In this document: piece by piece, positions 2,252 through 32,546 of the stretch
How the letters are laid out: the number at the start of each line of letters is the position of its first letter
Position numbering within the stretch: the first letter of the stretch is position 1
Origin: a virus
DNA: 35,549 bases
Reading direction: 5' to 3' (one strand)
Virus record (IMG/VR): IMGVR_UViG_3300031758_000260
Span: 1 to 35,549 of that record
Translations under genes and position numbers: made by a program
Notes under the pieces: model-generated
Told to the model about the DNA's origin: nothing
The model's input: the letters and a program-made list of their open reading frames with translations, nothing else
The model's database searches: none

Positions 2252-3301
2252 TTATCTCGCTGTAGCTGGTACGTTATTAGTTCCTACTAATGGATTTTCA
2301 GCAAATGCCATGTAGATGTATGTTCCACCTGACCCATTGGTATCTGTATTAGAACTTCTTGCTTTAAAACCATTTGAATAGAAATCAAATTGATTATTTC
2401 CTGTGCTTTCTGCATTAGTTAAATTTGGAAATAATTGTTTATCTGTTAAATTAAATGTGTTTCTAACACTATCGTACATATACCATTGACCACCACTAGT
2501 ATTAGTTTGTTTAATTATAATCATAGCAGGTTTAAATCCTGTATAAACAAATGTTCCATCAGTTGAACCATTACCAGTATATGAACCAAATTTGCTAAAT
2601 CCTTTTACTTCAGCGAAGCAGTAAGCGATAAATGATTGACCACTTTCATTTACATCAGCATCATTTCCTAATGTTATAAGAGTAGATGTTGGAGAAGTAT
2701 TATTCCAAAAAACAATATTTGTTCTTGGTACTTCAGTTGAATTAAGTAAATGACTTTTTGTATTTCCTAAAGATTTATGAAAACCTTGCCAATTTCTTCC
2801 ACCTAAACTTCTATTTTTAACTATTGTAAATGCAGGTGCAACACCTAAACCATGTCCAAAAGTAGCACCACTTGTTCCATTACCAGTATAACTTACAATA
2901 CTAAATCCACTTGTTGTATTAGCTGATACTGTGCTTGTGATAGTTCCTGAATTGTTTGATACTCCAGCACCATTTGCGTCCCAATTCCATGAAACAAATG
3001 TTTCTCCACTTTGATTTACCTTGTTATAAAATCCACCAAGAGTAAATCCATCACTATTAAAAGCTGTTAAACTACCAGAAGTGTCATCTCCCTCAGAAGC
3101 TGTTCCATTAGTTTGTAAATTTTTATTAACACCTCTAATTACATCAAATAAATTATGTCCATGAGTTGCGTTGCTTCTAACTTTAATCCAAACAAAATCT
3201 GGGGAAAAATTAAGACCAGTAATAGAATTTGTTGCACCAGTACCAGTATATAACTTTGTATCAAAATAATTACTTGGTTTATTAATTGTTGTGTAAGCCA
3301 T
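2252..3301 (-). CDS. Tail-associated protein, phage adhesin domain (DUF7483-like)
   Basis: A 349-residue protein with two copies of a marine-phage adhesin pattern. Copy one contains LNFSPDFVWIKVR, HNLFDVIRG and DGFTLGG; later segments repeat the phrases SYTGNGTSG and SYTGNGSTDG with a following FKPAMIIIK. I associate this with the DUF7483-type tail domain, from memory. In several marine phages this domain is the C-terminal part of a protein that begins with LamG and SPRY-like domains. Here those domains sit in the separate gene immediately upstream (3313-4662), 11 bp away, so this looks like a split version. It probably helps recognise the host surface. Confidence 0.6.
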   Translation of the reverse strand: MAYTTINKPSNYFDTKLYTGTGATNSITGLNFSPDFVWIKVRSNATHGHNLFDVIRGVNKNLQTNGTASEGDDTSGSLTAFNSDGFTLGGFYNKVNQSGETFVSWNWDANGAGVSNNSGTITSTVSANTTSGFSIVSYTGNGTSGATFGHGLGVAPAFTIVKNRSLGGRNWQGFHKSLGNTKSHLLNSTEVPRTNIVFWNNTSPTSTLITLGNDADVNESGQSFIAYCFAEVKGFSKFGSYTGNGSTDGTFVYTGFKPAMIIIKQTNTSGGQWYMYDSVRNTFNLTDKQLFPNLTNAESTGNNQFDFYSNGFKARSSNTDTNGSGGTYIYMAFAENPLVGTNNVPATAR

Positions 3302-30293: not shown

Positions 30294-30902
30294 ATGATAG
30301 ATAAAATAAAACAAGTAAATGATTTGTGTGCAGCCAATGGTTCATACGTTAATCAGCATGGAAAGAAAACAGTATCAGCTTGGTCAAAGATTAAATACTT
30401 TAGAGAAGTATTTGGAACTGAGTATGGAATAAACTGTATGATGATTGAACATACCGACAGATATGTTCTGATGAAATGTTTAATAATGGGTTACGATCCA
30501 GAAAGAATTATATCCACAGGTTACTCTAAACAATACAGAGATAAACCCGGATACATAGAGATAGCTGAAACATTTGCTATCACACGAGCTTTATCGTTCA
30601 TGGGACTGATGTTACAAGACATCACTTCAAAGGAAGAGTACGAGGAATTAGATATTCCAGTGCATCCTATGGATATTAAAGGCACAACGTCAGCCAATAG
30701 TAATAGATATGATGTTGAGGCGGTACAAAAAATACTCAAGAATATTAATTACGCACCCCATACAGCAAAGCTAGACTTTCTATGGAGAGCTAACAAAGAT
30801 CTTCTTGAGCAAATTAAAATAAACGATCTTAACACTTATCAATCAATCGTTAATAAGTTTGATAGTAAGCGTGATGAGATCACAACTCAAAATGAGGTAT
30901 AG
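30294..30902 (+). CDS. Single-strand annealing protein-like (ERF/Rad52-like)
   Basis: A 202-residue protein whose central region ends in EIAETFAITRALSFMGLML (89-107). This is the hallmark (aETsAigRALgflG) of ERF/Rad52-like and related single-strand annealing proteins. The N-terminal part (SAWSKIKYFREVFGTEYG, strands, then LIMGYDPERIISTGYS) fits their core. With the exonuclease of the same operon it forms a Red-like recombination pair, probably important for concatemer formation or replication in the absence of a phage polymerase. Confidence 0.65.
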   Translation: MIDKIKQVNDLCAANGSYVNQHGKKTVSAWSKIKYFREVFGTEYGINCMMIEHTDRYVLMKCLIMGYDPERIISTGYSKQYRDKPGYIEIAETFAITRALSFMGLMLQDITSKEEYEELDIPVHPMDIKGTTSANSNRYDVEAVQKILKNINYAPHTAKLDFLWRANKDLLEQIKINDLNTYQSIVNKFDSKRDEITTQNEV

Positions 30903-31235
30903 ATGAACGACCAACCAAAGAACAAGATATATTTAAATCTTGTTCCTAACTTAAATAAAAAGCAAGGCGACAATCAACCAGTGATGGTGGCACCTAATTC
31001 TCCAAAAGCTCCTGAAGGAAAAAATTGGAAGATGAATGTGAACATCAATAATGAATGGTATGATTACTGTGCTTTTGATGGAACAGACATAGATGGTAAT
31101 CCAACAGGTGGATACACTGTGATCTTAACTAAGAAAGAAGCGACACAAAACAAAACACAAGGTTCTTTTAAACAAGGCGGCTTCCAAAAGAAAAGCTTTG
31201 CAAATAACAAGAGCTTTGGTAATAGACAATACTAA
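30903..31235 (+). CDS. Putative ssDNA-binding protein (110 aa)
   Basis: A 110-residue protein directly abutting the annealing gene. The middle (EGKNWKMNVNINNEWYDYCA ... GGYTVILTKKE) is beta-rich with aromatic residues, compatible with a small OB fold. The C-terminus is a Gly/Phe/Lys/Asn-rich disordered tail (QGSFKQGGFQKKSFANNK). An SSB function is inferred from neighbours and composition; the typical acidic SSB tip is missing (it ends NRQY). It might instead be a recombination mediator. Confidence 0.5.
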   Translation: MNDQPKNKIYLNLVPNLNKKQGDNQPVMVAPNSPKAPEGKNWKMNVNINNEWYDYCAFDGTDIDGNPTGGYTVILTKKEATQNKTQGSFKQGGFQKKSFANNKSFGNRQY

Positions 31236-31255
31236 TAATAGGTAACACTATTATT
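31234..31255 (+). terminator. AU-rich hairpin after the ssDNA-binding-like gene
   Basis: A perfect 8-bp stem AATAATAG (31234-31241) with CTATTATT (31248-31255), 6-nt loop, begins on the stop codon of the previous gene. It lacks a strong T-run. It could be a weak terminator, or the first element of the structured leader that follows. Confidence 0.45.
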
Positions 31256-31256
31256 C

Positions 31257-31346
31257 ATTCTACCCTTGAGGTTTTACCCCTCGCCTATTCTAAAAAATAT
31301 AGGCACCTTTCGTTGTTTTCCTTAAGGGTAGAGTAAACAACAAAGG
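31257..31346 (+). ncRNA. Bistable leader RNA before the DUF6378-like gene
   Basis: Stem A pairs 31257-31271 with 31320-31334 (15 bp, 13 Watson-Crick plus 2 G-U). Stem B pairs 31306-31318 with 31335-31346 (12 bp, one bulged C) and includes the AAAGG ribosome binding site at 31342-31346. The 3' arm of A fills the loop of B almost completely, so they should exclude each other: A frees the ribosome binding site, B hides it. Inside A lie a hairpin GCCTAT/ATAGGC (31283-31288 with 31299-31304) and GAGG/CCTC. I do not recognise a known riboswitch class. Confidence 0.6.
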
Positions 31347-31354
31347 AACTATAC

Positions 31355-31660
31355 ATGATTAACAAAGACGACTTTATTTCTATTGAAGAAAATATACAGA
31401 AGAAAATTATAAAAGAACGCCAAGAAGATTATGGCGATTATGAGGAAAACTTTGCATTACTTGCTGAGATGTTTTCCATTATATTATTTGACAAGATCAG
31501 AGTGGCACTAACACCAGAAGATGTTGGTCATATAATGATGGGATTAAAACTATATCGTTGCACTAAGAAATTTAAAGCTGATAGCTATGATGATCTAGCT
31601 ATCTATTGCAAGATGACTAAGAATCTAAGGCACAAGGGTATTGCCAAAAAGGATAAATAA
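31355..31660 (+). CDS. DUF6378-like phage protein (101 aa)
   Basis: A 101-residue protein with the pattern ERQEDYGDYEENFALLAEMF (21-40), LTPEDVGHIMMGLKLYRCT (53-71) and DSYDDLAIYCKM (76-87). This corresponds to a small family frequent in phages (R..DYG..enF..ia, DV..mM.lKiaR, D...D.a.Y), annotated DUF6378 as I recall, possibly nucleotide metabolism related. The start is fixed by AAAGG 8 nt upstream; that site is part of stem B in the leader. Stop overlaps the next start (TAATG). Confidence 0.65.
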   Translation: MINKDDFISIEENIQKKIIKERQEDYGDYEENFALLAEMFSIILFDKIRVALTPEDVGHIMMGLKLYRCTKKFKADSYDDLAIYCKMTKNLRHKGIAKKDK

Positions 31661-31997: not shown

Positions 31998-32042
31998 AAA
32001 TTATAAAACAACGAACAGTTGCATTGCAACAGAGGGAGAGGC

Positions 32043-32546
32043 ATGACACCAAAAGAAATGTATAAGGAAATTAAGTTAAGATATTCCTTTAATAGTTTTT
32101 CAAATCTAACAGATAGAGAAAGAAAGATTTATCGCACAGGTTTTAAAACAGGATACAAACTAGCCAGACAATTTTTTAAATCAAATATTAGATACAAGCA
32201 AACTGTCGTTAAAGAAGTAGTTAAGTATGTAACGATTAATGATGTAGTTGTACCTGAGAATGTTAAAGAGATATTAACTATTGTTGCTAATCAACTTGGT
32301 GTAAATGTAAATGATATTACTGCCAAGACTAGAGTGCAACAAGCAGTGATTGCACGATCAATACTTATAAATGTTTTAAGAGATAAGTATGATATGCCAT
32401 TCACAAAGATTGGAGTGATCTTAGGTAATCGTGATCACACTACAATGATCCATCATGTTAAAATGAAAATGAATAAGGAACACTTCTGGCAACCAGATCA
32501 TATTATTTGGAATAGATACCAGTATGTAATGGATAACGTTAAGTAG
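32043..32546 (+). CDS. DnaA domain-IV-like DNA-binding protein
   Basis: A 167-residue protein; the start ATG at 32043 has GGGAG upstream, while the longer frame needs a TTG at 32019. Residues about 70-145 match the C-terminal DNA-binding domain of bacterial DnaA: PENVKEILTIVANQLGV (71-87), a basic helix, then the signature GNRDHTTMIHHVKMKM (128-143; bacterial form GGRDHTTVLHA). The AAA+ ATPase domain is absent; the N-terminal about 65 residues are unrelated and basic. It probably binds DnaA boxes, either to redirect host DnaA/replisome to the phage origin or to block host initiation. Two perfect boxes are present at 21-29 and 35255-35263. Confidence 0.8.
   Translation: MTPKEMYKEIKLRYSFNSFSNLTDRERKIYRTGFKTGYKLARQFFKSNIRYKQTVVKEVVKYVTINDVVVPENVKEILTIVANQLGVNVNDITAKTRVQQAVIARSILINVLRDKYDMPFTKIGVILGNRDHTTMIHHVKMKMNKEHFWQPDHIIWNRYQYVMDNVK

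Follow-up and report, generated by a model that had tools for sequence, protein, structure and literature searches.

A conserved intercistronic RNA element, very probably acting in cis, in HTVC010P-type SAR11 phages

The window, by which we mean the whole stretch of DNA analysed (35,549 nucleotides), is a phage record of 35.5 kb that agrees in its proteins and their gene order with the HTVC010P-type pelagiphages, for which the family Ubiqueviridae has been proposed (PMC10504331). The genes run in the order nuclease, strand-annealing protein, 110-aa protein, a gap, DUF6378 protein, small ORFs and a protein with a DnaA C-terminal domain. HTVC010P-related freshwater phages have been linked to Fonsibacter, the freshwater SAR11 (PMC6811365); the closest relatives of the window form what we label the freshwater clade, and the phage presumably infects Fonsibacter. 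The gap is bounded upstream by the gene of the 110-aa protein (30903-31235, + strand), which has a core rich in beta structure and a basic tail of low complexity and is co-inherited with the RNA element described here in the sequences examined, and downstream by a + strand gene (31355-31660) for a protein of 101 aa. The latter had been called DUF6378-like in the original prediction, in agreement with its match to Pfam PF19905 (E = 4e-16); the predicted structure of the DUF6378 protein is too poor for use (mean pLDDT 64). In HTVC010P itself (KC465898; L254:2452-2749), DUF6378 is annotated as two overlapping ORFs, AGE60319 and AGE60318, which form one gene in relatives, and the split gene looks missequenced or frame-shifted.

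Several features of the surrounding operon should also be mentioned. The type of strand-annealing gene (30294-30902 in the window; L082:1403-2050 and L222:1740-2438 in relatives) swaps between clades, being ERF in HTVC203P and of other types in the window and L222, and through this replacement the RNA element is retained together with the genes of the 110-aa and DnaA-domain proteins. The protein encoded at 32019-32546 of the window, in which a DnaA C-terminal DNA-binding domain is the sole known domain, closes the operon and is conserved in this place among the isolates read. A second conserved gap lies ahead of this gene (L254-L259, L082-L084), in most isolates with a strong SD-like motif, GTAGGGGATCTATG or a close version of it, at its end, unlike the SD behind the RNA element, which is weak or absent.

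All structural features of the first gap lie on the + strand. A hairpin predicted by folding, P0 (31234-31241 with 31248-31255), overlaps with its 5' arm the TAA stop (31233-31235) that ends the 110-aa gene. It is followed by a long stem, P1, in which the 5' arm (31257-31271) forms 15 pairs, G-U included, with the 3' arm (31320-31334), the same evidence holding for both arms. Directly behind the 5' arm of P1 lies a U tract (31272-31275), which is seen in the sequences of every clade and comprises 3-8 U in relatives. Within the loop of P1, a second hairpin, P2 (31283-31288 with 31299-31304), is predicted by folding and is rudimentary or absent in some marine clades; it is followed by a conserved pyrimidine-rich loop, CCUUUC-GUUGUUUU (31306-31319), whose family form is CCCUUUC ... 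(A)GUU(G)UUUU. Behind P1, the segment AAACAAC-AAAGG (31335-31346) contains the SD motif AAAGG (31342-31346), the single SD-like motif ahead of the ATG at 31355, and forms the 3' arm of an alternative helix, S2, with 31306-31318 as a possible, non-conserved partner. In S2, CCUUU (31306-31310) and GUUGUUU (31312-31318) face AAACAAC (31335-31341) and AAAGG (31342-31346), giving 12 pairs with C31311 bulged. Along the strand, the arms of P1 and S2 follow each other as a-b-a'-b', as in a pseudoknot, and the loop of S2 contains the 3' arm of P1. The leader folds at -34.1 kcal/mol, its shuffled versions average -21.7 and none of the 200 is as good (z = -3.46), and the pair probability of P1 in the window is 0.86-1.0. 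The original prediction, which had described a 15-bp and a 12-bp stem with the 3' arm of the first forming the loop of the second, and had judged such pairings to be very unlikely by chance, was therefore right about both stems, their nesting and the excess of structure, the 12-bp stem having one bulged base; it had overlooked P0 and P2.

The RNA structure of the leader is real and conserved. Of the 80 loci returned when the DUF6378 protein served as query, nearly all have the leader with visible compensatory changes, and the homologous leaders of freshwater and marine relatives constitute one RNA family with P0, a long P1, usually P2, and a U/C-rich loop. In an alignment of 27 sequences of the window's clade covering P0, P1 and P2 (A5), 94.8% of the cells are paired and the covariation score is 0.462, compared with 0.190 after shuffling and 0.05-0.11 when the partners are slid. 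The family-wide alignment of 55 sequences (A11), which was fitted to the structure and hence is biased towards it, has 95.4% of cells paired and two-sided compensatory changes in 28/28 pairs; its covariation score is 0.773, and falls to 0.222 on shuffling and to 0.11-0.20 on sliding. As to the individual helices, 98% of P0 cells are paired in the freshwater alignment, with two-sided changes in five of the eight pairs; P1 has 98% of cells paired both in the freshwater and in the 55-sequence family-wide alignment, with two-sided changes in 13/13 pairs of the family-wide model; and in P2 all five pairs have two-sided changes and 97.8% of cells are paired (55-sequence alignment). Covariance among homologous leaders, the check that had been proposed along with the original prediction, thus bears out P1 in both A5 and A11.

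When P1 was re-detected with equal scoring of G-U and A-C, the 36 distinct arm pairs contained 374 Watson-Crick pairs, 56 G-U, 2 A-C and 0 other pairs, a count whose input loci had been chosen with G-U allowed, although the excess is too large for that cause alone. A G-U pair on the + strand would read A-C on the - strand, and because G-U greatly outnumbers A-C, the element acts as RNA, on the + strand, that is, the coding strand of the operon. A function at the DNA level, such as an origin or a cruciform, is ruled out by the same count.

A covariance model trained on freshwater sequences retrieved 37 marine loci at the same gene junction. Model R2 gave one strong match per genome in 13 further records and seven more isolates, and on nine isolate genomes outside its training set each single strong match had an E value between 4e-10 and 1e-6. 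Among the isolates, ten of the 11 HTVC010P-type species examined carry the element, in one copy per genome: HTVC010P, HTVC034P, HTVC203P, HTVC204P, HTVC100P, HTVC035P, HTVC024P, Skadi, Lederberg and Greip, of which only Lederberg was in the R2 training set. HTVC028P has neither the element nor the 110-aa gene, yet has DUF6378. A DNA pattern run over the whole collection yielded about 20 true elements along with many chance matches, and the pattern-only elements inspected also have a 110-aa homologue upstream. Searches of the bacterial genome collection returned no relatives of DUF6378 or of the 110-aa protein, and hence no host copy of the element. In Rfam, a further check proposed with the original prediction, the window and ten diverse relatives have no match at the gathering score and nothing meaningful below it. 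No description of the element was found in a literature search that covered mainly openly accessible papers. On this evidence, the element would represent a new, previously unrecorded family among cis-acting phage RNA elements.

The position of the element within the operon is fixed. The gene upstream is that of the 110-aa protein at every locus checked; conversely, the element lies right behind the 110-aa gene in 77 of the 78 loci reached via this gene, and a P1-like stem is present in 126 of 127 distinct regions behind it, counting L453, in which the top-scoring stem is wrong and R2 nevertheless detects the element. In the main set, the upstream stop codon falls within P0 in 83/83 distinct elements, and it lies just 5' of P0 in some clades found later. 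The distance from the end of P1 to the next ATG is mostly 5-25 nt, irrespective of the gene. Given the stop codon at P0 and the short gap between P1 and the ATG, the element therefore fills the interval from stop to start. In one contig, L092, stop, P0 and start are present and P1 is wholly missing, so that this phage can do without P1 or the assembly has dropped the hairpin. A natural or assembly deletion around 2965-3000 of this contig (CATTCTA/TTATG) takes out P1 and keeps P0 and the next gene.

The gene that follows the element is less constant. It is mostly DUF6378, and it is DUF3310 instead in HTVC204P, HTVC100P, HTVC035P, HTVC024P, Greip and the L392/L408 clade, the assignment in L100P, Greip and L392/L408 resting on sequence likeness. 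Behind the P1-like stems, the next gene is DUF6378 in 98 cases, DUF3310 in 13, a methyltransferase gene in three, and also a SET-like one. Insertions straight behind the element comprise a methyltransferase-like gene (L023, L077, L173), a SET-like ORF (L419) and tiny ORFs. The DNA-methyltransferase-like insert has an NPPF motif and is followed by DUF6378 in L023 and L077; the SET-domain-like ORF (L419:2798-2960) replaces DUF3310/DUF6378. A tie to DUF6378 is ruled out by the DUF3310 and methyltransferase cases, and these comparisons show the element to be, as far as the gene content tells, independent of the identity of the next gene. This bears on the possibility that the element is a ligand-binding riboswitch or another sensor for nucleotide-related genes, which would fit the conserved loop nucleotides and the frequent presence of DUF6378 or of DUF3310, whose PHROG label is nucleotide kinase. 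However, the link to a nucleotide-related gene suggested in the original prediction does not hold, since the element also precedes DUF3310, methyltransferase, SET-like and tiny ORFs, and the connection with the genes of one pathway expected of a riboswitch is not seen; moreover, no Rfam riboswitch matches, and a conserved expression platform is absent. We therefore consider a sensor of this kind very improbable.

The original prediction had proposed that P1 and S2 compete and that S2 hides the ribosome binding site of the downstream gene. Such a bistable translation switch would hide the SD by CCUUUC:GAAAGG pairing once P1 opens or, alternatively, by a pseudoknot with P1 formed. In the window, the fold agrees with the trapping of AAAGG by S2: the motif is unpaired with a probability of 0.69-0.94 in the P1 state and of 0.01-0.08 when the P1 arm is blocked (37 C), that is, about 0.8 versus about 0.05 in the S2 state. 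In addition, CCUUU:AAAGG is possible in most freshwater sequences and in four isolates, Lederberg, HTVC204P, HTVC100P and Greip, Lederberg having a 9-bp version (CCUUUCUUU:AAAGAAAGG). The SD-sequestering translational riboregulators thus share with the window's clade an S2 able to hide AAAGG, and differ in that S2 is not conserved here. Two conserved, mutually exclusive helices are not found: P1 is conserved, whereas within the window's clade the own-pair duplex energy of S2 is -7.41 against -7.09 with loops and tails permuted (p = 0.05, no significant covariation; 42 rows, four of which are not true elements), and S2 is missing in many clades. When all clades are pooled, own loop/tail pairs beat the permuted ones, in a statistic that ignores relatedness. 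Nor are the two states of similar free energy: at -35.9 kcal/mol for P1 and -26.1 kcal/mol for S2, S2 is about 10 kcal/mol worse in the window and the states are therefore not balanced, and P1 is completed before the 3' arm of S2 is made. As to a pseudoknot, the arms of S2 are tied to opposite ends of the 15-bp P1, so that, by geometry, the full S2 would be incompatible with P1; only the outer CCUUU:AAAGG could coexist with it, and this pairing is not conserved family-wide.

In most marine clades, P1 and the CCCUUUC loop persist, whereas SD motif and partner are lacking. Both are absent in HTVC010P, HTVC203P/Skadi, HTVC024P, HTVC035P and the L386- and L408-type clades, in which CCCUUUC or CCCUU stays. 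That CCCUUUC persists where the partner assigned to it is gone makes it unlikely that the main job of the loop is to hide the SD. An SD-hiding pseudoknot as family-wide function, attractive from the first clades, loses its support with the HTVC203P, L386 and L408 clades, which have no partner. Thus, of the original claim, the trapping of AAAGG stands for the window's S2 state as folded and fails as a conserved feature, and neither the bistable switch nor the hiding of the ribosome site as the element's job is supported; we regard such a switch as improbable. SD pairing may be an extra layer of control in the freshwater phages, Lederberg, HTVC204P, HTVC100P and Greip, not family-wide.

What is kept across clades is the loop, with the stem sequences free to vary. 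The order of motifs is the 5' arm of P1, GUUUU or longer, CCCUUUC (with P2), (A)GUU(G)UUUU, and the 3' arm of P1. The first motif is shortened to GUUU in some freshwater sequences, the 3' U-run is shortened to GUUGU in many of them, CCCUUUC has the close variants CCCUUCG and ACCCUUG, and in several marine clades it is located in the apical loop of P2. The conservation of the loop while the stems vary therefore points to recognition in trans, by something that would read the element. The element might also be a small trans-acting RNA cut from the operon mRNA, whose C-rich loop UCCCUUUC, similar to the anti-SD end of 16S rRNA, would pair with SD regions of host or phage mRNAs. The loop could base-pair with SD-like sequences, to which it is complementary, and it is conserved more than any cis partner. 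However, an own promoter or terminator is not demonstrated, the fixed spacing to the next ATG would be unexpected, and the loop is ACCCUUG in one clade, which together make this distinctly improbable.

The U-rich internal loop atop a GC-rich stem also recalls the ENE triple-helix elements (PAN, MALAT1, transposon RNAs), and in the HTVC010P clade an A-rich tract (UUUAAAACAAU) lies behind P1. In contrast to those elements, the A tract is missing in other clades, among them HTVC203P and L386/L408, and the U-runs are incomplete in freshwater sequences, many of which have GUUGU at the 3' run; a triple helix with the A tract as family-wide function is ruled out.

Effects on transcription have to be considered as well. 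An intrinsic terminator, the plain alternative named along with the original prediction, is ruled out, as A-rich, C-rich or mixed bases follow P1 and no long U-run is present. The put RNA of phage HK022 is a structured, cis-acting phage RNA with two hairpins, and put-type elements are located near the start of early transcripts. The element resembles put as a cis-acting structured phage RNA with two hairpins, and with this precedent it might be an antitermination or pausing element that modifies the host RNA polymerase; it is an RNA-level, cis and family-wide feature, and the phage is said to use the host RNA polymerase (PMC10504331). However, it lies at another place in the operon, late in a short transcription unit with few genes after it, and an effect on the polymerase would be assumed by analogy. 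This reading has, in our opinion, very little probability.

In the podovirus T7, the RNase III sites of the early region consist of an intergenic stem, an internal loop and an upper stem. The element has the same arrangement between genes, and differs in being present in one copy with a conserved CCCUUUC/GUUUU loop; cleavage would here be proposed by analogy. The main rival to our proposal, set out below, is an RNA-processing or stability hairpin. In this view, the intercistronic hairpins P0 and P1 would together be a site where the polycistronic mRNA is processed by host RNases, with the effect either of shielding the nuclease, annealing-protein and 110-aa cistrons upstream or of leaving the mRNA downstream with a stable 5' end. 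The exact stop-to-start position, the stable stem, the irrelevance of the downstream gene, and the architecture of long stem, internal loop and upper stem are all consistent with it. According to Klug et al. (1987), as cited in PMC11354728, stem-loops of the polycistronic puf mRNA set relative protein amounts, a published stability role of an intercistronic hairpin. The Rhodobacter puf operon is likewise an alphaproteobacterial polycistronic mRNA with stem-loops between a stop and the next start, and it differs from the present case, in which the element belongs to a phage family and the loop sequences are conserved; a role in stability would here again be analogical. Furthermore, polymerases of its own, RNA polymerase included, are reported to be lacking in Skadi, as are recognisable terminators and riboswitches (PMC10504331), so that mRNA levels may depend on processing. 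However, a plain exonuclease-blocking or RNase III hairpin needs no conserved loop sequences, and here the clades share CCCUUUC and GUUUU although their stems are unrelated. Overall, we hold processing or stability to be a serious, if rather unlikely, explanation.

The explanation that we prefer takes the conserved loop into account. The mRNA of the nuclease/strand-annealing/110-aa operon folds into P0 and the long P1, beginning where the 110-aa gene stops and ending shortly ahead of the next start, and P1 presents the U/C-rich loop with GUUUU, CCCUUUC and GUUUU. The element would act post-transcriptionally at the gene junction and set the output of the downstream genes relative to the upstream recombination genes. 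The RNA structure, its strand, its conservation throughout the family, its fixed place and its single copy per genome are observed directly, and that this conserved RNA acts in cis is very probable. Speculatively, a protein might bind the single-stranded pyrimidine loop, in a manner akin to the phage single-strand-binding proteins that repress mRNAs. The single-strand-binding proteins of phage T4 (gene 32) and M13 (gene V) bind mRNA leaders, in autogenous or cross-repression. The likeness lies in a 110-aa gene beside those of a nuclease and an annealing protein, which by analogy suggests a similar protein; the differences are that the element is here behind the candidate gene and that the tail of the 110-aa protein is basic, not acidic.

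The product of the 110-aa gene, encoded directly upstream, is a speculative first candidate for the loop-binding protein because it is co-inherited with the element, its gene lies beside the nuclease and annealing genes, and its Gly/aromatic-rich tail is basic in most clades (5/6 sampled). Gene and element occur together in the 77/78 and 126/127 loci mentioned above, and both are absent in HTVC028P; it should be noted that such co-inheritance can also stem from mere adjacency in a compact operon. The 110-aa protein has no Pfam or PDB match, no solved structure is significantly similar to its structure model, and the viral proteins that it matches significantly are all unnamed. Taken as a whole, the proposal of a cis-acting intercistronic RNA of HTVC010P-type SAR11 phages, including the protein-binding mechanism, is tentative, and less likely than not to hold in full. 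That the RNA family and the co-inherited small protein form an RNA-protein module by which nearly all HTVC010P-type SAR11 phages control their recombination/replication operon is possible but doubtful.

In summary, a strongly covarying RNA is present family-wide at a fixed junction of the operon and provides a concrete handle on the timing of gene expression in HTVC010P-type phages, which are among the most abundant marine viruses (PMC10504331) and constitute the second most abundant known pelagiphage group (PMC12753301). The cultured phage-host pairs of HTVC010P, Skadi, Lederberg and Greip on HTCC1062 make the RNA ends and any bound protein directly accessible. If the proposal is true, the element would be the first regulator made of RNA to be described in this group, one of the most abundant among ocean viruses.
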